Part shown: positions 1 to 20,533 of the stretch, one piece after another | Layout: each line of letters begins with the position of its first letter | Position numbering within the stretch: position 1 is the first letter of the stretch | DNA from: Acidimicrobiales bacterium | GTDB taxonomy: Bacteria > Actinomycetota > Acidimicrobiia > Acidimicrobiales > MedAcidi-G1 | DNA length: 64,000 nucleotides | Direction of reading: 5' to 3' | Assembly (NCBI GenBank): GCA_030747595.1 | Contig: JASLKK010000008.1 | Location: 1 to 64,000, forward strand | Notes under the pieces: generated by a model | The model's input: the letters and a program-made list of their open reading frames with translations, nothing else | What the model was told of the DNA's origin: nothing | Databases searched by the model: none | Position numbers and translations under genes: made by a program

Positions 1-723
1 CCAGTCCATGTACGTGCCACCAGCCACGTAACGCTGCGGACCACGACCCGGCGTCAACAGGCCGACCATCGCCGACGCCAGGTCCCGGACGTCGACGAGC
101 AGCCACCCGCCGGAGGCCAGGCTCATCATGATCTCGCTCTGCAACGTGGGGATCAGGTTGGCGGCCAGCACGTTGAGCCCCAGATCGGTCGGACCCGTCA
201 CCCCGGCCGGATAGATGATGGATACCGGCATACCGTTGTCCTGCATGGCCCGTGCGTGTTCCTCGGCCACCGCCTTGGATGCGTTATACGGGTTTCCCCC
301 TCCCTGCACCGGATCGTCGCCGGAGAGCACGTCACCGGTCGGCGGAAAGATCACCGACATGGTCGACAGGTGGACAATGGGGTCACACTCGGCGGCCGCT
401 GCGGCGTTGAGCACATTGACCGCTCCGGGGGCGTTGACCTCCAGCGCGTGGTGCATTTGCTCGGGATCCAGACTGGTGAACGCCGCGGTATGGACGCAGG
501 CGTCGCAGCCCTCGAGCGCAGTTGTCACGGCATCGAGGTCGGTCATGTCGCCGAGCACGGCCTCAACCTTGTTCGCTGAACCGTCGATGCCGTGCATAGC
601 CAGCATCCGATCCAACTTGTCGCCATCGCGCACCAGTGCCCGCACTTCGTGCCCGGCCGTCATCAGGGCGGCCAGCGTGTGGCCTCCGATGAACCCTGTC
701 GCTCCGGTCAACATGACCCGCAT
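1..723 (-). CDS. Extended short-chain dehydrogenase / NAD-dependent epimerase-dehydratase (3' part cut by window edge)
   Basis: NAD(P)-binding Rossmann enzyme of the extended SDR family. I translated the strand by hand. The N-terminus carries the dinucleotide motif TGATGFIGG directly after an ATG at 723, and a Y-N-A-S-K catalytic motif (YxxxK) follows at about residue 145. Some 241 codons are visible and the frame is still open at base 1, so the C-terminus is missing. The gene diverges from the ferredoxin/P450 pair, and a GTTAGCC palindrome lies in the shared upstream region. Relatives include 3-beta-hydroxysteroid dehydrogenases, dihydroflavonol reductases and sugar epimerases. The substrate cannot be told from sequence; the neighbouring P450 makes a hydroxylated lipid or terpenoid plausible. 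Confidence 0.85.
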   Translation of the reverse strand, partial: MRVMLTGATGFIGGHTLAALMTAGHEVRALVRDGDKLDRMLAMHGIDGSANKVEAVLGDMTDLDAVTTALEGCDACVHTAAFTSLDPEQMHHALEVNAPGAVNVLNAAAAAECDPIVHLSTMSVIFPPTGDVLSGDDPVQGGGNPYNASKAVAEEHARAMQDNGMPVSIIYPAGVTGPTDLGLNVLAANLIPTLQSEIMMSLASGGWLLVDVRDLASAMVGLLTPGRGPQRYVAGGTYMDW

Positions 724-859: not shown

Positions 860-877
860 GTTAGCCAAACGGCTAAT
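860..877. promoter_or_regulatory. TetR-type operator, site 1 (GTTAGCC-AAAC-GGCTAAT)
   Basis: Inverted repeat with 7-bp arms (one mismatch at the outer base) and a 4-base centre. It lies 56 bases before the ferredoxin start and 137 bases before the divergent SDR start. Three more copies occur at 4793, 8038 and 9082. Two TetR genes lie between the outer copies, so control by one or both is the simplest inference. Confidence 0.7.
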
Positions 878-932
878 AGCATCTACAGGTCGTGAAAACA
901 CATGGACCGGGGTTCCGGGGGAGATGACACCG

Positions 933-1130
933 ATGAAGATCAAGGTCGATGCCGAAAGATGTGAAGGCCATAGCCGGTGCTACTCGCTGGCCCCCGAGCT
1001 GGTTGACGTGGACGACCTAGGCAACGCCTTCGAGTTGAACGACGGCGAGGTGCCCGCCGGACTCCAGGACAAGGCCCGCCTCATTGTCGACAACTGCCCC
1101 GAGTTCGCCATCACCATCGAGGAGGGCTGA
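933..1130 (+). CDS. 3Fe-4S type ferredoxin, electron donor for the adjacent P450
   Basis: A 65-residue ferredoxin. The cluster ligands visible are C10, C16 and C55 followed by Pro. The second position of the usual CxxC motif is His (C10-E-G-H13-S-R-C16), a form known in actinobacterial P450 partner ferredoxins that carry a 3Fe-4S cluster. I chose ATG 933 because GGGGGAG ends nine bases upstream. ATG 924, in the same frame, has no room for a ribosome site. The P450 gene starts three bases after its stop, so the two are translated together. Its expected role is to pass single electrons from an unlinked reductase to the P450 heme; no ferredoxin reductase gene is nearby. Confidence 0.9.
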   Translation: MKIKVDAERCEGHSRCYSLAPELVDVDDLGNAFELNDGEVPAGLQDKARLIVDNCPEFAITIEEG

Positions 1131-1133
1131 TCC

Positions 1134-2399
1134 ATGACCAAGACCACCGACACCCACGGCGATCCAGCTGCCGACGCGGTGGCCGCCTCCATCCCCGAGC
1201 GCTGCCCGGTCTCCGATGTCACCACCGACTACGACATGTTCGACGCGGACTACCTGCGCGACCCCTTCACGGCCTGGGCCGAGATGCGAGACCGCTGCCC
1301 GATCGCCCACACCGACCGCTACGGCGGCTCATGGCTCCCCACGAAGTACGACGACCTTCAGGCCATGGCCAAGATGGTTCCTGAACTGTCGTCCAAGTCG
1401 CCCATCGTGATCGACTTGCCCGAGGCACTCGTCAAGGGCGACTCCACTGGCTACAACGCGGCCGCCCCCATCACCGCAGACCCGCCTGAGCAAAATTGGA
1501 CCCGCCGGGCCCTGCTCCCCCACTTCACTCCCAAGGGCATCGCAGCGGAGACCGAGTACACCAAGCGGCTCTGCCACGAACTCATCGACGGATTCATCGA
1601 GAACGGCAGCTGCGACGCAGCAGTCGACTACGCCCAGCAGATCCCGCCCCGGGTCATCGCCAAGAAGCTCGGCGTGGACGCCTCCATGGTGGACGACTTC
1701 ATCGAGTGGGTCCGCGGTGTGCTTGAGCTGGGCCTTCAACAGCCCGAGCTGCGGGCCAAGTACCGCGACATCATTCGCGAGTTCTTCGCCGCCGAGGTGG
1801 CTGACCGACGAGCCAACCCGAAGGACGACCTAATCACTGCCCTCTGTCAGACGGAGCACGAAGGCAGCTTCCTGCCCGACGAGGTGATCATCGGCATGTG
1901 CAATCTGCAGCTGGTGGCCGGCATCGACACCACCTGGTCATCGATCGGCTCAGCCCTGTGGCACCTCGCCAGCCATGATGACGATCGGCGACGCCTGATC
2001 GACGAGCCCGACCTGTGGAACACCGCGGTCGAGGAGCTGCTGCGTTTCTACGCCCCGGTGACCATGGCCCGTAACGCAGCCGAGGACATCGAATACGGCG
2101 GGGTGAAGTTCAAGAAGGGCGACAAGATTCTCATGAACTTCCCTGGCGCCAACCACGACCCCGACCACTTCGAGGACGCCCACGAGGTGCATCTGGACCG
2201 CCAGCGGAACCGACACGTGGCCTTTGGTATCGGCATCCACCGGTGTGCGGGCTCGAACCTGGCCCGAATGGAGATGGAAGTAGCGCTCAAGACCTGGATG
2301 GAACGCATCCCCGAGTTCACGCTGTCAGATCCAGACGCCGTGACGTGGGCCGGCGGCCAGGTGCGCGGACCCCGCATCCTCCCAGTCACGTTTTCCTAG
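1134..2399 (+). CDS. Cytochrome P450 monooxygenase
   Basis: A 421-residue soluble bacterial P450. The landmarks are in the normal order: I-helix A262-G-x-D265-T266-T267 for oxygen activation, the ExxR pair E301/R304, and the heme loop F-G-I-G-I-H-R-C371-A-G with C371 as the axial thiolate. No membrane anchor is seen. It is paired with the 3Fe-4S ferredoxin just upstream. Regulation by the TetR-type site at 860 is inferred. Enzymes of this class hydroxylate terpenoids, sterols, fatty acids or alkylphenols. The neighbouring alcohol dehydrogenase, acyl-CoA dehydrogenase and hydratase fit a hydroxylate-oxidise-degrade route, but the substrate is unknown and I cannot assign a CYP family. Confidence 0.95.
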   Translation: MTKTTDTHGDPAADAVAASIPERCPVSDVTTDYDMFDADYLRDPFTAWAEMRDRCPIAHTDRYGGSWLPTKYDDLQAMAKMVPELSSKSPIVIDLPEALVKGDSTGYNAAAPITADPPEQNWTRRALLPHFTPKGIAAETEYTKRLCHELIDGFIENGSCDAAVDYAQQIPPRVIAKKLGVDASMVDDFIEWVRGVLELGLQQPELRAKYRDIIREFFAAEVADRRANPKDDLITALCQTEHEGSFLPDEVIIGMCNLQLVAGIDTTWSSIGSALWHLASHDDDRRRLIDEPDLWNTAVEELLRFYAPVTMARNAAEDIEYGGVKFKKGDKILMNFPGANHDPDHFEDAHEVHLDRQRNRHVAFGIGIHRCAGSNLARMEMEVALKTWMERIPEFTLSDPDAVTWAGGQVRGPRILPVTFS

Positions 2400-2403
2400 G
2401 GCG

Positions 2404-4728
2404 CTACTGGGCGACCGACTCGGCGTGGAATATCCCGGCGGCCACGGCGGTCCGGGTGGTCTCGTCCACCTCGCTCAGCAACTCGACGGTGACGCTACCG
2501 ATGGTGGCCGTGCACGTGAACCCATGGGGGTAGGGCCCCACCGGTGATCCGGTGTCGGTACCTACGTCGAAGCTCTCGCCCCCCATGGCAAACACCACGG
2601 GCACCGTCTGTTCAAGACGAGCCTGGCCCACGACCTGACCGTCCACCGCCAACGTAGCGGTACCACCGGCGCCGAAGCCTCCGTCCGAATCGAACAACAG
2701 CGCTACCTCCCGGCGGCCGGGTGCCAACGGTTCGACTGCGGCGACTGTGGTACGGACATGGCCATAGAGGTTGTAATGCCACGTCGGCCGACCTTCGTCG
2801 AGGTAGATCGCCCAACCGTTGAAGCTCCCGCCCTGACAGACGATGACCCCTTCTGGCGTCCCCTCAGGCACCTCGAGGTCACAGGTGATCCGGTAAGAGC
2901 GATTCTTGATGTTCAGGACGACCCGCTCGGGCATCCGAACGTGCGCCGTGGTGTAGGTCATCCGGGTGACCCCGACCGGCACCGACGGTGCTCGCATCGC
3001 CGGATCCAGGTTCATCGCCGCGTCTCGCAGCGGGTACACCCCGTTTCGCAGACACTCGGCGTCAAACAGGTCACGCATCTCCGCCAGCAACTCGGGTCGC
3101 TCGTCGGCCAGATCGTGGCTCTGGGAGAAGTCCTCACGCAGGTCATAGAGTTCCCACGATTCCTGTGGACCGTCGAAGGGAACCGAGCCGAACCGGATCC
3201 ACGGCAACCGGCCGTGGAAACACGACGCCATGAAACCTTCGTGGTAGATGCCGCGGTTGCCCATCATCTCGAAGTACTGGGTACGTCGGCCCTCCACCCC
3301 GGGATCGGTGAACGACGCCAACATCGACTGGCCCTCGATGGGCATCTGGTCGATCCCGTTCACCGAGGTCGGTGGCTCGATACCCGCCGCGGCGAGGATG
3401 GTGGGGGCAAGATCGATGACGTGGTGGAACTGGTCTCGAATTGCTCCGGCGTCGGTGATACGACGGGGCCACGACACGGCCAGCCCATTGCGTGTGCCGC
3501 CGAAATGCGATGCCACCTGCTTCATCCACTGGAAAGGCGCGTCCAGTGCCCATGCCCAACCCACGTTGTAGTGGCATTCACTGTGCTCGGTCCCGAAGTC
3601 GTTGATGTGTTGGAGCAGAAACTCCGGGTCCTCCTCGAAACCGTTCTGGAGGGCCGGTAGCGACCAGGTGCCGTCGATACGACCCTCGGCCGACGCCCCG
3701 TTGTCGCCGGTGACGTAGATAAAGAGTGTGTTCTCCCACTCGCCAATGCCCTCGAGAGCGTCGATTAGGCGGGCCACCTGAGCATCAGTGTGAGCCAGAA
3801 AGGCGGCGAACACCTCCATGAGGCGGCGGGCCACCGGCTTATACCGGTCGGGGTACTCGTCCCATGATGGGACCACGTCAGGGCGGGATGTGTTAACCGT
3901 GCCCGACGGGATGACACCCATCTCGAGTTGCCGCTCGAAGATGGACTGGCGGAGGTCGTCCCACCCCTCGTCGAAGAACCCACTGAAGCGGTCCAGCCAT
4001 GCGTCCGGTACCTGGAGGGGGGTGTGGACGGCCCCCGGCGAGAAATAGCAGAGGAACGGCTTGTCGGGCCGGTGGGCCTTGACCCGCTGCATCCACTCGA
4101 TGGCCTTATCGGCCATGTCCTCGGTGAGGTGGTAGTCATCGCGCCCCTCGTAGGGGGCGATTGGTGTGGTCTGGTCGTACAGGTCAGGTTCGAACTGCGA
4201 GGTCTCGGCTCCGGGGAACCCATAGAAGCGGTCGAACCCCAGGCCGGTAGGCCAACGGTCGAACGGCCCGGCCGGGCCGGTCTCCCATGATGGGGTGAGG
4301 TGGCCCTTGCCAAACATGCCGGTGGTGTAGCCGTTCTGGCGTAGCACCTCGGCCACGGTGGCCGCTTCGCGAGGAATGATCGAGTCGTAAGCTGGAAAGC
4401 CATTGGCCGCCTCGGTGATTCGACCCATGTGGACGGTGTGGTGGTTTCGACCGGTCAGCATCGAGGCCCGGGTGGGAGCGCAGATGGCCGTCGTGTGGAA
4501 ACGGTTGAAGCGCAGTCCCTCGGCGGCCACCCGTTCCAGCCCGGGCGCCGGGACCGGGCCTCCGAAGGCCCCGAACGACCCGAAGCCAACGTCGTCGAGC
4601 AGCACGAGCACGACATTGGGAGCGTCCTCCGGGGCGGAGTCCAGGACGATCGGGTCGGGTACGCAGTCCTCGGTGAGGCGCCCGATGGTTCCCTTGTAGG
4701 GCGGGGTGGGACGGGGGACGGCGGTCAT
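2404..4728 (-). CDS. Arylsulfatase (type I, Cys-type formylglycine sulfatase)
   Basis: A 774-residue sulfatase. The signature C83-A-P-T-R87 followed by S-M-L-T-G-R marks the cysteine that is converted to formylglycine, and paired Asp residues 45-46 fit the calcium site. No N-terminal signal peptide is obvious, so a cytoplasmic location is likely unless another route is used. The C-terminal ~200 residues form a beta-rich accessory region, as in long bacterial arylsulfatases. It is convergent with the P450 (four bases between stops) and divergent from the acyl-CoA dehydrogenase, with a degenerate operator between them. It would release sulfate from an organic sulfate ester. A formylglycine-generating enzyme is not encoded nearby. 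Confidence 0.93.
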   Translation of the reverse strand: MTAVPRPTPPYKGTIGRLTEDCVPDPIVLDSAPEDAPNVVLVLLDDVGFGSFGAFGGPVPAPGLERVAAEGLRFNRFHTTAICAPTRASMLTGRNHHTVHMGRITEAANGFPAYDSIIPREAATVAEVLRQNGYTTGMFGKGHLTPSWETGPAGPFDRWPTGLGFDRFYGFPGAETSQFEPDLYDQTTPIAPYEGRDDYHLTEDMADKAIEWMQRVKAHRPDKPFLCYFSPGAVHTPLQVPDAWLDRFSGFFDEGWDDLRQSIFERQLEMGVIPSGTVNTSRPDVVPSWDEYPDRYKPVARRLMEVFAAFLAHTDAQVARLIDALEGIGEWENTLFIYVTGDNGASAEGRIDGTWSLPALQNGFEEDPEFLLQHINDFGTEHSECHYNVGWAWALDAPFQWMKQVASHFGGTRNGLAVSWPRRITDAGAIRDQFHHVIDLAPTILAAAGIEPPTSVNGIDQMPIEGQSMLASFTDPGVEGRRTQYFEMMGNRGIYHEGFMASCFHGRLPWIRFGSVPFDGPQESWELYDLREDFSQSHDLADERPELLAEMRDLFDAECLRNGVYPLRDAAMNLDPAMRAPSVPVGVTRMTYTTAHVRMPERVVLNIKNRSYRITCDLEVPEGTPEGVIVCQGGSFNGWAIYLDEGRPTWHYNLYGHVRTTVAAVEPLAPGRREVALLFDSDGGFGAGGTATLAVDGQVVGQARLEQTVPVVFAMGGESFDVGTDTGSPVGPYPHGFTCTATIGSVTVELLSEVDETTRTAVAAGIFHAESVAQ

Positions 4729-4792
4729 TGGTCAGGATCTCCAACTCTGCGGGCAAGAACTGGGCTCGCTGGGGCTGGCCAGTGGCCCCATT

Positions 4793-4810
4793 CTTGGCCA
4801 TCTGGCTAAC
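4793..4810. promoter_or_regulatory. TetR-type operator, site 2 (degenerate copy)
   Basis: CTTGGCCATCTGGCTAAC matches the best copy at 8038 at 15 of 18 bases. It lies in the 92-base space between the divergent sulfatase and acyl-CoA dehydrogenase starts and ends ten bases before the latter. The right half is perfect and the left half is imperfect, so affinity may be lower. Confidence 0.5.
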
Positions 4811-4820
4811 ATGCGGTCAC

Positions 4821-6038
4821 ATGAGTGACTTCCCCAACGATATGACTGCCGGCGCCGCCTTTGCCGAGTTCAGGGCCGAGGTCCAATCCTTCCTCCACGA
4901 ATACGACCGACGCCCGGTCGCCCCCGGACTCTCCCGTCTGGACCGGGGCCGAGCCTTCCTGGCGGCGCGCTACGACGCCGGGCTGGGCGCTCTGGACTAC
5001 CCGGTCGCCGACGGAGGTCGAGGCCTGGACCGTCGCTTCGTCGACGTCTACCGCCAGGAGGCCGAAGGCCGGACCACCGATGACGGTGGTTCTGGATTCA
5101 GCATCGGCCTGGACATGTGCCTACCCACCATCCGCGACCACGGAAGCCCTGAACTACGCCAACGGTTCCTCGGCCCCGGGCTCCGGGGCGACGAGCACTG
5201 GTGCCAGCTCTATTCCGAGCCGGGTGCCGGATCGGACCTAGCTGGCCTGACCACCCGTGCGGTCCGCGACGGTGACGAATGGCTGGTCACCGGTCAGAAG
5301 GTATGGACCTCGGGTGCCGACCACGCCGACTTCGGCATCCTGCTGGCTCGGACCGACTGGGACGTCCCCAAGCACACCGGCATCTCCATGCTGGTACTTC
5401 CAATGCGCCAACCGGGCGTGGTGGTCCGGGCCCTCCACCAGATGACGGACGTGGCCCACTTCAACGAAGTCTTCATGGACGAGGCCCGGGTCCCCGTCGA
5501 CTGGGTCGTCGGGGGCCCGGGAAACGGCTGGAAGATGGCTGTCGCTCTCCTCGCGTACGAACGTTCCTCGCTCGGCAAGGGAAGCGGGCGCCAGCCCATT
5601 CCAACCGACCGGCTCATCGAACTGGCCCAGGCCAACGGGCGATCCCAAGATCCTGTCGTGCGTCAGAATCTGGCCCGTCTGGCCACCGGGACGAGGCTCA
5701 TCGAATGGCTGAACCTCCGCACGGGAATCCATCCATCGATCACAAAGCTCTGGCGGACCCAGCAGGGACACACGGCGGCCCATGTGGCCGCCGGGCTGGC
5801 CTGGCCCGGAGGTATCGCCTGGGACGGCTCTCGGATGGGCACCACCCAAACGGGCCGATTCGCCGACGCCGATGGCTCGCACTGGGCCTATGGGATCTGC
5901 GACTCACCTGCCCTCTCGCTGGCCGGAGGTACCGACGAGATCCAGAAGAACACCCTCGGCGAACGGGTCCTCGGCCTTCCCCGGGAGCCGGCCGGCAACC
6001 GTGATACCCCGTTCAGTCAGATACCGAAGAACGTCTGA
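4821..6038 (+). CDS. Acyl-CoA dehydrogenase
   Basis: FAD-dependent acyl-CoA dehydrogenase of 405 residues, introducing a 2,3 double bond in an acyl-CoA. Typical blocks are W-C-Q-L-Y-S-E-P-G-A-G-S-D-L (FAD/substrate region, about residue 132) and the C-terminal G-G-T-D-E-I-Q-K-N block with E-R-V-L-G-L-P. I used ATG 4821; an in-frame ATG at 4728 would run through the operator and add a non-family leader. The gene is convergent with the first TetR gene and overlaps it by 26 bases at the stops. The N-terminus is short compared with beta-oxidation enzymes, as in the actinobacterial FadE group that acts on branched or steroid side chains. The substrate is not known. Confidence 0.92.
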   Translation: MSDFPNDMTAGAAFAEFRAEVQSFLHEYDRRPVAPGLSRLDRGRAFLAARYDAGLGALDYPVADGGRGLDRRFVDVYRQEAEGRTTDDGGSGFSIGLDMCLPTIRDHGSPELRQRFLGPGLRGDEHWCQLYSEPGAGSDLAGLTTRAVRDGDEWLVTGQKVWTSGADHADFGILLARTDWDVPKHTGISMLVLPMRQPGVVVRALHQMTDVAHFNEVFMDEARVPVDWVVGGPGNGWKMAVALLAYERSSLGKGSGRQPIPTDRLIELAQANGRSQDPVVRQNLARLATGTRLIEWLNLRTGIHPSITKLWRTQQGHTAAHVAAGLAWPGGIAWDGSRMGTTQTGRFADADGSHWAYGICDSPALSLAGGTDEIQKNTLGERVLGLPREPAGNRDTPFSQIPKNV

Positions 6039-6645
6039 ACGGCTCCCGTTCCCCACGGGCTGCCGTACCCGGGTCTAGACCGAGCGACAACGACCGGAGG
6101 ATCAACGCCAGTCGTTCCTCCACCTCTTCAGCGAGGAGCGGATCCTCGCCACCCCTGGCGATCCACGGATCCATTGTCGTAGCAAAGAGGCAGCGGGCGA
6201 GATGGAACACCGTGGCAATGCCCACGTCGACCCGGACCTCCGTCTCATCCTCGCCAGTCCGCGTCTCGAGGGTCTGCTCTACAGCCACATCCAGCGTGGG
6301 ATGGGTCACGTGGGTGCGGTCGGCTTCACCGGACAACGACGCGTAGGCCACGGCCCGGACGAATTCTGGTGCCCGCAGGAGAGAAAACGGTTCCACCCGA
6401 CCCGAGGTATCCAACTCCTCCACAGCGGCATAAGACTCCGTGAGACGATCGAACCCCGCACGGAGCAGAGCCTCCTTCCCGCCGAAGTAGTGATGGACCA
6501 AGCCGTAGTTGACACCGGCCTCCTCAGCGAGAGCTCGCCCGGAGATCCGCTTAGGTGCCGAATGGCCTAGGAGACGGGCCGCGGCGGCCACCAGCGCCTC
6601 TCGGACCTCGTCGGCACCCTTGGGGGAAGAACCGCCGGTGGTCAT
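6013..6645 (-). CDS. TetR family transcriptional regulator (first of a tandem pair)
   Basis: A 210-residue repressor. The N-terminal helix-turn-helix has the recognition segment G-V-N-Y-G-L-V-H-H-Y-F at residues 44-54, followed by the family's G-K-E-A-L-L-R. The remaining ~140 residues are the helical ligand-binding and dimerisation domain. It overlaps the upstream TetR by four bases (ATGA) and is last in the hydratase-TetR-TetR operon. Its recognition helix is almost the same as that of its neighbour, so both probably bind the GTTAGCC palindromes. The ligand is probably an acyl-CoA or pathway intermediate, which is an inference from the cluster. Confidence 0.92.
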   Translation of the reverse strand: MTTGGSSPKGADEVREALVAAAARLLGHSAPKRISGRALAEEAGVNYGLVHHYFGGKEALLRAGFDRLTESYAAVEELDTSGRVEPFSLLRAPEFVRAVAYASLSGEADRTHVTHPTLDVAVEQTLETRTGEDETEVRVDVGIATVFHLARCLFATTMDPWIARGGEDPLLAEEVEERLALILRSLSLGLDPGTAARGEREPFRRSSVSD

Positions 6646-7220
6646 CGCTCGACCTCCACCCCGATCGACCGGTACAGCGATTCGAGCACGGTGAAAAACC
6701 GGTCCCGGATCACCTCACCGTCCGCTTCGAGGTCCAAGCCAAGCCCCGTGGCGTTGTGTTCGACGAACACCGGCCAACCCAACTGGAGCAAGACGATGGC
6801 TGCCACGGTGGCCCGGTGGTGGACGGGGTCGCCGTCCTGGTCGCCCTCGGTGGCCATCCCGAGCATGGCGTCAAAGACCGGGTGCGAAACGTCCTCGTCG
6901 TCGTACCCACCCTCAAGGGCGACGTGAGCAGCAAAGCCGAAGATCTCCCGGTCTGAGACGACCTGGTTCAATGGAATGGGTCGGGTGCCGCCCGCCATTG
7001 AATCGGCCAGAAGCCGGGAACCATGCCGACCTCGGGCGGCTCTGAGCAGGTCGCCGGACGACTCGAAGTAGTAGTGGACTAGGCCGTAGTTGACCTCAGC
7101 CTCTTCGGCCAGTGCCCGACCGGTGACCGTCGACGGGGGACGCTCCGACATCAACCGGATGGCCGCATCGAGCAGCGCCGTCCGGGAGGACGGTTCCCCG
7201 TCGGGATCGACGCCCATCAA
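6642..7220 (-). CDS. TetR family transcriptional regulator (second of a tandem pair)
   Basis: A 192-residue TetR protein with the helix-turn-helix at residues 34-51, including G-R-A-L-A-E-E-A-E-V-N-Y-G-L-V-H-Y-Y-F. The start overlaps the stop of the enoyl-CoA hydratase gene by four bases. It is clearly a paralogue of the next gene in the DNA-binding part, while the ligand-binding parts differ strongly. This suggests an old tandem duplication in which the two now sense different ligands or form heterodimers. The 28-bp palindrome upstream of the operon implies autoregulation. Confidence 0.92.
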   Translation of the reverse strand: MMGVDPDGEPSSRTALLDAAIRLMSERPPSTVTGRALAEEAEVNYGLVHYYFESSGDLLRAARGRHGSRLLADSMAGGTRPIPLNQVVSDREIFGFAAHVALEGGYDDEDVSHPVFDAMLGMATEGDQDGDPVHHRATVAAIVLLQLGWPVFVEHNATGLGLDLEADGEVIRDRFFTVLESLYRSIGVEVER

Positions 7221-7981
7221 GTCCGCGCCGGCCGAAGTTGGCCGGCCGCGGCGAGGAGGGCGGCTCCCCGATCGATGCGATCCGCACTGGTGACCACATC
7301 GGCGACCATGCCGGCGGTGTGCTCCTTCATCATCCGGCCCGCCGATCCGGGGAATCCGGCGATCTCGAGTGCCAGCCTTCGGGCTGCGTCGAGGACCTCG
7401 TCGTCAGCCACCACGTCGAGGGCGATCCCTAGACGATGCAAGTCCAGACCGCTGAACCGACGGCCGGAAAGGGTGATCTGATGGATCACGGAGAGAGGAT
7501 GTCGGCCCGACAGCCAGGCCAGGTTCATGGCGGCCGGCATGCCCTGACGGACCTCGCCGACTTGAAGGAACGCCCCCTCGCCGGCCACCAGAAGGTCACA
7601 GGCCAGGGCAAGCCCCGCTCCACCGTTGATGGCAAACCGTTCCAGCGCGCCCACGACCGGGACCGGACACTCGGCAATGGCCCGGTGGGCAGCAGCGAAC
7701 GACGAACTCGCCGTCCCGATCCAGGTCGGCGGCGGATCGGCGTTGTACTCCGTGAGGTCGAGGCCCGAACAGAACCCACCGCCAGCGCCGTGTAGGAGGA
7801 CGGCCCCAACGTCATCCCGGTCGGAGGCCTCGGCAAAGCAGGCGGCCAGAGCATCGGACAACGGTCCGACTATGGCGTTCTTCCTCCCCGGTCGATTCAG
7901 GACAATGGTGGCCAACCCGTCCTTGACCTCGAGGAGAACGGGGTTGTCGGGCGTGTGGTCATCGACTTTGTGATGGGTCAT
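7217..7981 (-). CDS. Enoyl-CoA hydratase/isomerase family protein
   Basis: A 254-residue crotonase-fold protein. The oxyanion-hole block H-G-A-G-G-G-F-C-S-G-L-D-L and the N-G-G-A-G-L-A-L-A-C-D-L block are present. Glutamate in V-G-E-V-R-Q-G-M lies near one of the catalytic positions. It heads a three-gene operon with the two TetR genes, and its promoter overlaps the 28-bp palindrome. It probably hydrates or isomerises an enoyl-CoA made by the dehydrogenase at 4821. The family is functionally mixed, so the exact reaction is open. Confidence 0.9.
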   Translation of the reverse strand: MTHHKVDDHTPDNPVLLEVKDGLATIVLNRPGRKNAIVGPLSDALAACFAEASDRDDVGAVLLHGAGGGFCSGLDLTEYNADPPPTWIGTASSSFAAAHRAIAECPVPVVGALERFAINGGAGLALACDLLVAGEGAFLQVGEVRQGMPAAMNLAWLSGRHPLSVIHQITLSGRRFSGLDLHRLGIALDVVADDEVLDAARRLALEIAGFPGSAGRMMKEHTAGMVADVVTSADRIDRGAALLAAAGQLRPART

Positions 7982-8032
7982 GATGTCCTCGATCGGTCAG
8001 GCGCTGTCAGTGGTTTCGGTAACAAGCGCGTG

Positions 8033-8060
8033 CTGAGGTTAGCCATATGGCTAACCTCAG
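8033..8060. promoter_or_regulatory. TetR-type operator, site 3 (28-bp perfect palindrome)
   Basis: The core GTTAGCCATATGGCTAAC is at 8038-8055. The symmetry continues outward without mismatch to C8033 and G8060, giving 14-bp arms. It lies 52 bases before the start of the hydratase-TetR-TetR operon, where autoregulation is expected. It is the strongest of the four copies. Confidence 0.8.
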
Positions 8061-8075
8061 GCAACCGGCCATCCT

Positions 8076-8333
8076 GATCTCCTCACGACCGAAACCGACA
8101 TCCTCAATCTGGACTTCAATGCCCACCTAGACCGCATCCGACGCTTCACTGACGAGGAGTTGAGCACCGGTGAAGTGGGCATGGTGGAACTCGGCGAGGT
8201 GCCGCCGCCGCTGGTTGACCACCAGGCCAAGACGGACCTGTTCGGCATCACCTTGCCCCGGGAGTGGGGTGGCTTGGGTTGAACCATGGAACAGCAGGTC
8301 CGCCACCTCATCGTCATGTCATCCCGTTCATGA
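8076..8333 (+). pseudogene. Remnant of an acyl-CoA dehydrogenase N-terminal region
   Basis: Reading from 8076 in the frame of codon 8097, the translation ends F-G-I-T-L-P-R-E-W-G-G-L-G, a typical block of acyl-CoA dehydrogenases. An in-frame TGA follows at 8280-8282. After that stop the same frame continues T-M-E-Q-Q-V-R-H-L-I-V-M-S, which is the expected next piece of the family, and then meets a second stop at 8331. There is no good start codon, and the FAD-binding and catalytic parts are gone, replaced by the convergent permease gene. This is a decayed gene fragment inside the TetR-regulated cluster, just downstream of the palindrome that may once have been its operator. Confidence 0.7.
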
Positions 8334-8335
8334 AG

Positions 8336-9052
8336 TCAGGTCAGGGCCCCCACGATGGTTGCCAGACCACCAAGACCACAGATCCCCAGGAGCACCGGTC
8401 GGAACCACTCGCTGTCCACCCATCGGCGAACCGGAGGTGCCAACACCAGACCGATGACGGCGGAACCCATGACGAGCGCGATCCGCCCCACCTCGGCGCC
8501 GTCGATCGCCCCACCGACCAACAGGCGCACGGTCACCACGGCGCTCAGCACCATGACGAAACCCGCGAGGTTGGGCCTCAGGACCTGGGGAGGGTCATCG
8601 TGGTGGAGGATGGCGTAGGGCGGTCCCGGAAGGGCGGCCACCCGAAGCGTGAACGCCGTCAGCACGCCGGCCAGCACCGACATCCATCGTCGGCTCGGGG
8701 GTTTCCAACCGGACCCCACTGCCACCACCGACAGCACGACCAGCACCCCCACAGCCAGCGTCAGACCCCGCTCCGAGAGGCCGGCCAGCGCCAGCTCGCC
8801 CAAGACCAGTCCGACCGGTGCCCCCAGAAGGCACTTCCGCCATCGCTTTGCATCGAAACCCGAGAACTCCATCGTGACATTGCGGATACCGACGACCGTT
8901 CCACCCAGGATGAGGGGAAGGGGAACGAACGCCGGATCCACGGCCATGAGCACCGGGCTGGCGACCAGGGCAATGCCGATGCCCGCCGAGGCCTGGACGA
9001 GGGAACCCGCAGCGACGGCGACCACCACGAGGACGATCTCGATCGGAGTCAC
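8336..9052 (-). CDS. TauE/SafE family membrane permease
   Basis: A 238-residue, very hydrophobic protein with about eight membrane spans and an N-terminal G-S-L-V-Q-A-S-A-G-I-G motif like that of TauE/SafE sulfite or sulfoacetate exporters. The start is a GTG at 9052. It stands alone on the minus strand, divergent from the alcohol dehydrogenase, with operator site 4 in the 92-base space between them. With an arylsulfatase 4 kb away, export of a sulfur anion is conceivable, but family members also carry other organic anions. Its start lies about 30 bases from the palindrome, so it may be co-regulated. Confidence 0.85.
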   Translation of the reverse strand: MTPIEIVLVVVAVAAGSLVQASAGIGIALVASPVLMAVDPAFVPLPLILGGTVVGIRNVTMEFSGFDAKRWRKCLLGAPVGLVLGELALAGLSERGLTLAVGVLVVLSVVAVGSGWKPPSRRWMSVLAGVLTAFTLRVAALPGPPYAILHHDDPPQVLRPNLAGFVMVLSAVVTVRLLVGGAIDGAEVGRIALVMGSAVIGLVLAPPVRRWVDSEWFRPVLLGICGLGGLATIVGALT

Positions 9053-9081
9053 TGATCGACCCTAACCCGAACCGGCGGATG

Positions 9082-9099
9082 GTTAGCCAAGCGGCTAAC
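9082..9099. promoter_or_regulatory. TetR-type operator, site 4 (GTTAGCC-AAGC-GGCTAAC)
   Basis: Perfect 7-bp arms with a 4-base centre, extended one pair outward (G9081/C9100). It lies between the divergent permease and alcohol dehydrogenase starts, 45 bases before the latter. Confidence 0.75.
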
Positions 9100-9144: not shown

Positions 9145-10236
9145 ATGCGTGCCGCCGTCCTCCACGAAGCCCCCGGCGACCTCGTCGTCGAAGATCTGAC
9201 CATCGCCAAGCCGATTGGCCGCGAGGTTCTGATCCGAACGAAGGCGTCAGGCCTCTGCCACAGCGACCTCCACGTGATCGAGGGGCTGCTCCCGCTACCG
9301 TCGCTGCCCGCGGCGCTTGGCCACGAGGCCTCGGGCATCGTGGAAGCGGTCGGACCTGACGTGACGGCCTTCGCTCCAGGCGACCACGTAATCACCTGTC
9401 TGACTCAGTTCTGCGGCGTGTGCCCCGAGTGTCACGTGGGTCGCGTGTTCATCTGCTCGAACCGTCACGACCTAGCCCGCGGGCCCGAACTGGAACCGAC
9501 ACTGTCGCTTGACGGCACTCCAGTGCTCCCCATGGCCGGGCTCGGGGCGTTCGCCGAGCAGATATTGGTGCACGAGAATGGCGTGGTCGCCGTCGACCCG
9601 GCCGTGCCCTTCGACGTGGCCGCCCTCATCGGCTGTGCCGTGATGACCGGTGTGGGCTCAGCCACCAACGGCGCGCAGATCCGTCCGGGCGAAACGGTGG
9701 CCGTTATCGGCTGCGGAGGCATTGGTCTGAACATCGTGCAGGGTTGTCGGCTGGCCGGCGCCAGTCGGATTATCGCGGTGGACCTCAACGCCGAGAAGCT
9801 CGAAGCGGCCCGCGGGTTCGGAGCAACCGACGTGGTCGATGCCTCGACGGACGACCCGGTCGCTGCGGTACAGGCCCTGACTGGCGGCGGAGTCGATGCA
9901 GCCTTTGAGGCCATCGGACTGACGGCGACCGGCGAACAGGCGCTGGCCATGATCCGCCCAGGGCGCACCGCCTACCTGGTCGGAGTCCCGCCAATCACCA
10001 GCACCATGACCGTGCCCGGAGCGCTCATGGTGCTCCAGGCCAAGGGACTTAGGGGCCTGTTCATGGGCAACTCCAACTTCAAGGTGGAGATGCCCAATCT
10101 GGCCCGCCACTACCTGGAAGGTCGTCTTGAACTGGACCGACTGGTCTCGGCCCACATCACCCTCGACGAGGTGAACGACGGCTACACCGAGCTCAAGGCG
10201 GGAGCCACCTTGCGTTCCGTCATCATGTTCGACTGA
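9145..10236 (+). CDS. Zinc-dependent alcohol dehydrogenase (class III-like MDR)
   Basis: A 363-residue medium-chain dehydrogenase. The catalytic zinc ligands C38, H60 and E61 are present, as is the structural zinc lobe C90-x2-C93-x2-C96-x7-C104. The Rossmann motif G-C-G-G-I-G-L-N sits near residue 192. The enzyme would oxidise an alcohol to an aldehyde or ketone with NAD, fitting the step after P450 hydroxylation. The gene is preceded by operator site 4, so it likely belongs to the TetR regulon. It is convergent with the HAD gene. It resembles the NDMA-dependent and aryl-alcohol dehydrogenase groups of actinobacteria; substrate choice is unknown. Confidence 0.93.
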   Translation: MRAAVLHEAPGDLVVEDLTIAKPIGREVLIRTKASGLCHSDLHVIEGLLPLPSLPAALGHEASGIVEAVGPDVTAFAPGDHVITCLTQFCGVCPECHVGRVFICSNRHDLARGPELEPTLSLDGTPVLPMAGLGAFAEQILVHENGVVAVDPAVPFDVAALIGCAVMTGVGSATNGAQIRPGETVAVIGCGGIGLNIVQGCRLAGASRIIAVDLNAEKLEAARGFGATDVVDASTDDPVAAVQALTGGGVDAAFEAIGLTATGEQALAMIRPGRTAYLVGVPPITSTMTVPGALMVLQAKGLRGLFMGNSNFKVEMPNLARHYLEGRLELDRLVSAHITLDEVNDGYTELKAGATLRSVIMFD

Positions 10237-19609: not shown

Positions 19610-20533
19610 TCAGCTACCCACGCCAGGCCAGTCGACGAACGACCGGCCAGTGATCCGCTCGTAGGCCTCCACGTAACGCGACGAGGTGGCCGAGATGACC
19701 TCGTCGGGCAGCAGTGGCGGTGGCGGCTGTTTGTCCCAGTCCAGACCATCGAGGTGGTCGCGGACGGGCTGCTTGTCAAACGACGGTGGCGTGGCGCCCG
19801 GCTTCCAGGCCTCGGCGGACCAGAACCGGGACGAATCCGGAGTGAGGACCTCGTCAGCCAGCACCAGACGACCGTCAACCATGCCGAACTCGAACTTGGT
19901 GTCGGCGATGATCAGGCCCCGTTCCGCGGCCCACTCGGCGCCCCGTAAATAACAGGTGATCGACGCCTCACGGGCTGCTTCGGCCACCTCAGTACCCACC
20001 AGGTCGACGGACTCAGCGTACGAGATGTTGACGTCATGGCCCTCGTCAGCCTTGGTCGACGGCGTGAACACCGGTTCGGGAAGGCGGCTGGCCTCCAGTA
20101 GGTCGTCAGGCATCAGGGTGCCGTGCATGGTTCCCGAGGCTCGGTACTCCTTCCACGCCGAACCGGTGATGTAGCCCCGGACTATGCACTCGATGGGCAG
20201 CATCTCAGCCCGATGGCAAAGCATCGTCCGCCCGGCCAGTTCTGCGAGAACCTCCGGTGGCGCACCGTCTGGCTGACCGACGCTCAGGATCTGGTCAAGG
20301 TCCGCTGTGTCCGTCGAGATGAGATGGCCGTCAACAAGGCCGGCAAACTGCTCGAACCAGAAGGCGGTCATGGCGGTGAGCACCCGACCCTTGTTGGCAA
20401 TGGGCTCAGCCATCACCACGTCGAAGGCCGAGATTCGGTCCGAGGTGACCATCAACAGGCGGTCGTCACCGGCGTCATAGACGTCCCGCACCTTCCCCGA
20501 GTGCAGGTGGGGCAGCGGAATCTGTGGACTCAT
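19610..20533 (-). CDS. purC: SAICAR synthetase
   Basis: ATP-dependent joining of aspartate to CAIR. At 307 residues it is the longer bacterial/yeast-like form. Visible blocks are the N-terminal S-G-K-V-R-D-V-Y-D, the adjoining T-S-D-R-I-S-A-F-D-V, and I-I-A-D-T-K-F-E-F-G near residue 205. The ATG at 20533 is 14 bases after the purB stop. Confidence 0.96.
   Translation of the reverse strand: MSPQIPLPHLHSGKVRDVYDAGDDRLLMVTSDRISAFDVVMAEPIANKGRVLTAMTAFWFEQFAGLVDGHLISTDTADLDQILSVGQPDGAPPEVLAELAGRTMLCHRAEMLPIECIVRGYITGSAWKEYRASGTMHGTLMPDDLLEASRLPEPVFTPSTKADEGHDVNISYAESVDLVGTEVAEAAREASITCYLRGAEWAAERGLIIADTKFEFGMVDGRLVLADEVLTPDSSRFWSAEAWKPGATPPSFDKQPVRDHLDGLDWDKQPPPPLLPDEVISATSSRYVEAYERITGRSFVDWPGVGS

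Follow-up and report, generated by a model that had tools for sequence, protein, structure and literature searches.

A candidate split double-TetR repressor and its predicted palindromic operators in a sulfatase-P450-CoA gene cluster of an uncultured marine Acidimicrobiales bacterium

Repressors of the TetR family are very common in bacteria, and most are regarded as homodimers. Double-TetR repressors, in which two units are fused, have been described but are called infrequent; Mce3R of Mycobacterium tuberculosis is a one-chain repressor with two non-identical recognition helices and 25-bp non-palindromic operators (PMC11667970, PDB 9b7y). Here we describe a locus in the first 64,000 nucleotides of contig JASLKK010000008.1 from an uncultured marine Acidimicrobiales bacterium (assembly GCA_030747595.1; this whole 64-kb stretch is called the window), in which two TetR genes, TetR1 and TetR2, lie among four copies of the palindrome GTTAGCC-N4-GGCTAAC. 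We propose that the two proteins act as a split double-TetR repressor on these sites.

The window pair would be like Mce3R in that two TetR units, as proposed here, act together in an autoregulated, lipid-type catabolic regulon; it is unlike Mce3R in consisting of two separate chains and in having a predicted operator that is palindromic, with a 16-bp core. According to the passages of PMC5744401 that deal with them, AvaR1/AvaR2 and ScbR/ScbR2 of Streptomyces are also pairs of homologous TetRs that share operators and can heterodimerise, as is proposed here. However, AvaR1 and AvaR2 are autoregulator receptors that form homodimers too, whereas the window pair is encoded in an overlapping operon and has fused relatives (PMC5744401). 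BkaR of mycobacteria likewise governs a local autoregulated regulon, for keto-acid/coenzyme A (CoA) catabolism, through a 16-bp palindromic core, but BkaR is one TetR, whose binding as a dimer has been demonstrated (PMC3920632), and the half-sites of its core (GTTA-N-T-N4-A-N-TAAC) diverge from those of the window after GTTA. The third site of the window shares its length with the 28-bp palindrome of QacR, to which a second dimer binds (PMC4482099, in excerpt). Among the items listed by searches of the open-access literature, none reported this motif, the split TetR pair or the half-site series described below. Fused double-TetRs and Streptomyces heterodimers are already known; the new part would be the regulator, that is, the split pair with its palindrome and the half-site series.

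A preliminary description of this DNA had placed four copies of the palindrome before catabolic genes around two TetR genes, with no further copy in the 64 kb, and had read them as a local TetR regulon. All four copies are present, with 0, 0, 1 and 2 mismatches, all are intergenic and the two TetR genes do lie amid them (Table 1). With up to three mismatches allowed, the 14-base pattern is not striking in the window (four places against 1.36 expected; 8 of 100 shuffles had at least four). Because it was not significant in the window alone, we used the core TTRGCC-N4-GGCYAA, derived from relatives. This core occurs at the four sites (0.01 expected in the window; none of 100 shuffles had as many as four) and at no other place in the 2.46-Mb genome assembly, which is 95.9% complete. 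Genome-wide, the stricter core TTAGCC-N4-GGCTAA is matched exactly three times and once with a single mismatch, all four within the same 8.2 kb. Two mismatches add 27 further places, one in the window (20205-20220, the nearest thing there to an extra copy) and the remainder on other contigs; the same pattern backwards gave 96 places at two mismatches or fewer. The genome-wide scan thus disposes of the objection, raised in advance, that the motif might be common across the genome. It is restricted to the promoters of co-localised genes, as a local TetR regulon requires. A scan for sigma-70 promoters around the four sites found none against 0.9 expected and was uninformative.

We compared 48 genomes of the family for the exact core TTAGCC-N4-GGCTAA. 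The motif is found in 21 of them and TetR1 in 16, two of which belong to the same species. All 16 genomes with TetR have the motif, compared with five of the 32 without (Fisher p 9e-9, not corrected for kinship). Both TetR1 and TetR2 were found in 15 of the 16, and in the last (G023) the contig ends beside TetR1. The sulfatase orthologue is present in 30 genomes, and the motif occurs in 15/15 of those with TetR and in only 2/15 of those without (G045 and G030), suggesting that it tracks the TetR pair rather than the target gene. In the TetR genomes the sites recur before orthologous genes, with exceptions in G044, G047, G038 and G014: the counterpart of operator 1 precedes ferredoxin or P450 in most relatives, and the TetR operon is preceded by a site of its own in many TetR genomes. 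The loci read hold 55 sites with at most one mismatch, none within a tblastn match to a pathway protein. Without G004, G007 and G028 there are 52, and one of these, in G014, has no pathway gene nearby. The gene caller, trained on the high-GC window, called few genes in the AT-rich G013, G014, G004 and G007 and in proteobacterial loci, and these were read by tblastn with window and relative proteins instead.

Sister genomes that keep target genes but have no TetR pair mostly have no sites either. In genus g4, G013 and G014 carry both TetR and motif. In G011, G012, G015, G016 and G018 the order hydratase, acyl-CoA dehydrogenase, sulfatase is kept with a gap of 98-99 bp at the position of the TetR pair, and G017 keeps the last two genes; the gaps between acyl-CoA dehydrogenase and sulfatase in these six genomes hold nothing better than four to six mismatches to the motif. 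In g6, the loci read in G025, G026, G027 and G031 keep ferredoxin-P450-acyl-CoA dehydrogenase and hydratase with no TetR, and no site at two mismatches or fewer was found in them. G032 has a two-mismatch relic of the motif 75 bp before its ferredoxin match. In G045 (L043 6220-6547) a stretch of 327 bp that holds no TetR pair separates the hydratase and acyl-CoA dehydrogenase matches, and a single site remains. G045 and the g4 loci L130-L134, which have no pair between hydratase and acyl-CoA dehydrogenase and one site or none, may be natural deletions.

TetR1 and TetR2 are paralogues, 34% identical, with near-identical recognition helices. In both, PF00440, the N-terminal TetR helix-turn-helix, scores above its gathering threshold. 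The motif VNYGL is invariant in 14 aligned TetR1 and 13 aligned TetR2 rows (alignments A1 and A2, made from genomes other than G013 and G014), and candidate operator palindromes lie near the promoter of the TetR operon itself, as is expected of the family. Since the motif also precedes the TetR operon and occurs near some distant actinobacterial TetRs with the same recognition helix, the local regulon reading of the preliminary description is strongly supported by genome comparison: the motif is exclusive to the locus and follows the TetR pair. We regard it as very probable that the four palindromes are the regulon of this pair.

The evidence from distant TetRs comes from a scan of named genomes with TetR1 peptides, which gave 53 loci; 40 of these (L077-L116) make up 672 kb. 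Five exact palindromes occur in four of these 40 loci, compared with 0.02 expected by composition: two in Nocardioides, one in Rhodococcus and one in each of two Nocardia, with the TetR helix VNYGL[VI]HH. In Yinghuangia both halves are present with an N3 spacer. Among single TetRs of Acidimicrobiia with the same helix, a TTAGCC half precedes an upstream gene of 592-619 aa in 15 of the 22 loci that have such a gene, with a second half that is mostly different and often GGCCCA. This suggests that the helix alone does not set the whole palindrome. Single-TetR TTAGCC sites (helix VNYGLIH) were seen among L084-L088, L091, L094, L095, L099, L100, L102 and L125-L128.

In other Acidimicrobiia the TetR1-like match lies within one frame of about 370-400 aa that holds two TetR domains, and in several loci these fused genes adjoin sulfatase or P450 homologues. 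Similar fused chains occur in metagenome-assembled genomes titled Rhodospirillaceae and Gammaproteobacteria. A class-wide search of 395 genomes, in which four candidates per genome were scored, found them at E 1e-35 in at least 3, the host genome included. The host protein (contig C12, 5129-6244; helices VHHAQVQQMF and VNYGLVNHYF) is predicted to be a second, fused double-TetR regulator of the same genome. In an alignment of 15 rows (A3) the C-domain helix VNYGLIHHYF is invariant and the N-domain helix differs by lineage; the C-domain helix is slightly varied in the host C12 protein and in G612. A domain tree places TetR1 with the C-domains and TetR2 with the N-domains in 82% of bootstraps; it leaves out single TetRs and L120, whose two domains most resemble each other. 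A tree of all 45 domains has the same backbone with support of 40/77. The structure model of the fused relative L108 (pLDDT 84.9, pTM 0.85) matches just one PDB entry, Mce3R (9b7y), when Foldseek hits are limited to E values of at most 0.001 (E 7.9e-7, TM 0.46), and aligns with it at Z 21.3 over 343 residues (root mean square deviation 6.9), the next-best match having Z 12.6. In silico, the pseudo-dimer fold of Mce3R is therefore the clear best match for this protein. We also observed two double-TetR proteins, L120 and L155, with two near-identical helices (VNHGQ[IV]HHYF twice) and no operator found.

The sites beside fused proteins, where found, appear asymmetric, with one TTAGCC half and one lineage-specific half. 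The right-half patterns were defined after the sites had been seen. For fused genes of Acidimicrobiia the site (T/C)T(A/G)GCC-N4-(G/A)GCT-N-C is present in all 11 loci scanned (9 distinct contigs). It stands at or just before the fused gene in 11/11, with a second intergenic copy in 10/11 and a third match, inside a gene, in L103 and L118, which are one contig. In L077, whose called start is uncertain, the gene-start copy lies 53-65 bp ahead of it. Other loci are duplicates as well (L119 of L096, L117 of L108, and many of L064-L076 repeat other loci). In the host genome the exact pattern TTAGCC-N4-GGTAAG has two places only, before the C12 fused gene and before the next gene, a TauE/SafE homologue. 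Two further places have one mismatch, one before a luciferase-like monooxygenase gene in the C12 cluster and one on C7. In gammaproteobacterial loci TTAGCC is followed by N4 and G-N-A-N-A-(G/T/A) in 4/10, 2/3 and 4/10 cases; two of these loci gave a right-half background of 1.1-1.2%. In Rhodospirillaceae loci it goes with G-N-ATAA in 1/7, 2/5 and 0/0 (background 0.04%, from two loci).

Taken together, these data make it on balance probable that TetR1 and TetR2 form a split double-TetR repressor, probably a heterodimer, operating the four palindromes. In the window the units are two overlapping open reading frames and not one polypeptide, and their site is a palindrome and not an asymmetric operator. 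TetR2 and TetR1 would be made from overlapping genes and would pair via their ligand-binding domains, most likely as a heterodimer, each protein setting its recognition helix into one TTAGCC half-site; the operator would be palindromic because both helices are nearly the same (VNYGLVH). In the fused relatives, where the first-domain helix differs, the second half-site would differ with it. On the simplest account, a C-type domain would recognise one half-site of every operator in the group and an N-type domain the other. When bound, the repressor would prevent transcription of ferredoxin-P450, of sulfatase/acyl-CoA dehydrogenase, of hydratase-TetR2-TetR1, in this case as autoregulation, and of TauE/alcohol dehydrogenase by blocking their promoters, and a pathway metabolite, perhaps an acyl-CoA, would release it. 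The overlapping genes (TetR2/TetR1 by ATGA; hydratase/TetR2 by TGATG) and their joint presence or absence fit a TetR2:TetR1 heterodimer, which we consider reasonably likely to be the main DNA-binding form. The preliminary description had missed that the two TetRs make up a conserved, overlapping pair similar to fused double-TetR repressors and had treated each TetR protein by itself, which is probably the wrong unit.

The sites at hydratase starts, the presumed auto-operators, have the most symmetric flanks (mean 4.4 of 6 positions, n=8, compared with 2.2 in 37 others; grouped post hoc), which fits tight autoregulation. Left-right covariation of the flanks over 45 sites (the near copies G036 and G038, and G004, G007 and G028, dropped) is small, with 115 matches against 95.6 in shuffles (p ~0.006). 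By position it reaches p 0.006 at -2 and 0.05 at -6, with the other eight above 0.05, and it is due largely to the hydratase-start sites. We do not take it as a sign of an RNA structure. The lack of any site with TTGGCC in both halves (0/51) has no bearing on heterodimers, since by our own estimate only 0.3 would be expected.

Several observations weigh against the split-repressor proposal. Five genomes with no detected TetR pair have the exact motif (G045, G030, G004, G007 and G028). In G045 (one copy) and G030 (two) it adjoins pathway genes, and in the other three it is one isolated palindrome each, away from pathway genes (L039, L040 and L041); G004 and G007 are 68% and 78% complete, and the G030 contig is 7.5 kb. 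Of the TetR genomes, G014 carries an additional exact palindrome away from any pathway gene (L063, C15 6833-6848), and G044 and G047 lack a site, even with one mismatch allowed, at their ferredoxin promoters; the counterpart of operator 2 has decayed in the close relative G038. TetR2 of G013 reads VSYGL and not VNYGL, and 36 of the 40 loci L077-L116 have no exact palindrome despite the TetR helix. On the side of the fused proteins, the gene-start copy in ten Acidimicrobiia loci runs across the start codon and a GCT codon, which makes its right half partly coding; a coding constraint can clearly be set aside for the second copies alone. TTAGCC-N4-GGTAAG has four places at up to one mismatch, compared with 11 for the backwards control, so that the argument for C12 is where the places lie and not how many there are. 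No site was found for the fused proteins of L080 (no TTAGCC), G183, G612 and L120, a twelfth fused locus of the Acidimicrobiia group that also has no TTAGCC and was not among the 11 scanned. The N-domains of L078, L109 and the host C12 protein fall below Pfam TetR_N, and phmmer with TetR1, TetR2 and the fused L077 lists no Mce3R chain. The split in the domain tree is weak (81/46), and an arrangement with split and fused proteins as separate clades was not rejected (approximately unbiased test, p 0.23), so a separate origin of the two could not be excluded. Finally, a homodimer would be just as well served by a symmetric palindrome.

This last point leads to the alternative that TetR1 and TetR2 act as two independent homodimers in competition for these palindromes, each released by its own ligand, giving two-input control. 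Near-identical helices and symmetric operators would suit such an arrangement, TetR proteins are usually homodimeric, and AvaR1/AvaR2 compete as homodimers besides forming a heterodimer (PMC5744401, in excerpt). Against this, the window pair is present or absent together, its genes overlap, and its members resemble, in order, the domains of single-chain proteins. We consider two competing homodimers unlikely, though worth keeping in mind. It is quite improbable that only one protein, probably TetR1, binds the palindrome while the other modulates it or has other targets: the fused C-domain helix VNYGL[VI][HNS]HYF is the more constant and matches that of TetR1, and several fused N-domains are too diverged for Pfam, but VNYGL of TetR2 is invariant in its 13 aligned family members (VSYGL of G013 lies outside that alignment). 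Binding of a different regulator to the palindromes, or their sharing through chance or common descent, would account for the five motif genomes with no detected pair (two incomplete, and G030 on a short contig) but is highly improbable, given that the motif is exclusive to the locus, is absent concordantly from sister genomes without TetR, and is placed for autoregulation, and that TetRs of other groups with this helix have the half-site next to them.

Double-TetR repressors may follow a modular half-site code, a suggestion that we regard as evenly poised. The C-unit VNYGL[VI]xHYF would read TTAGCC, and the N-unit would read a lineage-specific half across a fixed N4, with the N-helix pairings NYAQIHRHF-GGCTGC, HHAQVQQMF-GGTAAG, HPTFVGQCF-~GTAGAG and HHTLANYTH-~G(T/C)ATAA. 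In this scheme the window pair would be a split and symmetric case: TetR2 and TetR1 would form an obligate heterodimer, with a variable half that equals the constant one and so yields a palindrome. A split pair with fused relatives in three bacterial classes (by record titles) would form a natural series on how paired repressors arise, and symmetric and asymmetric sites that go with the helices offer a way to ask how each helix chooses its half-site.

Table 1. Predicted operators and genes of the window cluster, with the sites beside the fused gene on contig C12 of the same genome
Feature	Position	Strand	Description	Context or remark
Operator 1 (predicted)	860..877		GTTAGCC-AAAC-GGCTAAT, one mismatch	between SDR and ferredoxin/P450 genes
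Operator 2 (predicted)	4793..4810		CTTGGCC-ATCT-GGCTAAC, two mismatches, degenerate left half	between sulfatase and acyl-CoA dehydrogenase
Operator 3 (predicted auto-operator)	8033..8060		perfect 28-bp palindrome; inner part 8038-8055 is exact GTTAGCC-N4-GGCTAAC	between hydratase-TetR2-TetR1 operon and decayed acyl-CoA dehydrogenase
Operator 4 (predicted)	9082..9099		GTTAGCC-AAGC-GGCTAAC, exact	between TauE/SafE and alcohol dehydrogenase
Short-chain dehydrogenase/reductase (SDR) / NAD-dependent epimerase	1..723	-	327 aa in same-species genome G036	cut by contig end at base 1
Ferredoxin	933..1130	+	4Fe-4S single-cluster family	start codon either 933 or 924
Cytochrome P450	1134..2399	+	Pfam assignment	
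Sulfatase	2404..4728	-	774 aa	CxPxR motif (CAPTR)
Acyl-CoA dehydrogenase family	4821..6038	+	Pfam assignment	
TetR1	6013..6645	-	helix VNYGLVHHYF	resembles C-terminal domain of fused double-TetR proteins
TetR2	6642..7217	-	helix VNYGLVHYYF	resembles N-terminal domain of fused double-TetR proteins
Enoyl-CoA hydratase/isomerase family	7217..7981	-		first gene of TetR operon
Second acyl-CoA dehydrogenase, fragment	8088..8303	+	68% identical to residues 2-73 of 387-aa relative in G041	
TauE/SafE family membrane protein	8336..9052	-	sulfite-exporter family, Pfam assignment	
Zinc-type alcohol dehydrogenase	9145..10236	+	best NCBIfam model NDMA-dependent, below its cut-off	
Sites beside C12 fused gene	4986, 6288, 7132		one with mismatch	L154, G000:C12:1-16000

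Gene families in the cluster were assigned by Pfam. The catabolic genes earlier placed behind the sites hold up as ferredoxin/P450, SDR, sulfatase, acyl-CoA dehydrogenase, hydratase and alcohol dehydrogenase; the supposed permease belongs to the TauE/SafE family. Operator 3 does precede hydratase-TetR-TetR, as had been proposed, but it also faces a decayed second acyl-CoA dehydrogenase that had been missed. That gene is intact at the equivalent place in G041 and reaches the contig end in G039, suggesting that operator 3 once served, and may still face, its promoter. Further genes seen in the clusters of relatives encode an acyl-CoA synthetase and a nitronate-monooxygenase-like protein, joined in some by a CoA-transferase. 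The conserved gene set makes the single induced pathway of the preliminary description plausible, and the sulfatase, P450, CoA enzymes and TauE would fit a sulfated, lipid-like compound as its substrate. For the conserved sulfatase-P450-CoA cluster that uncultured marine Acidimicrobiales carry, the locus supplies a predicted operator together with the genes. At its left end, the SDR/epimerase occupies the place where many relatives carry the acyl-CoA synthetase divergent to ferredoxin-P450; an SDR at that place was seen in the host genome (G000), G036 and G038.

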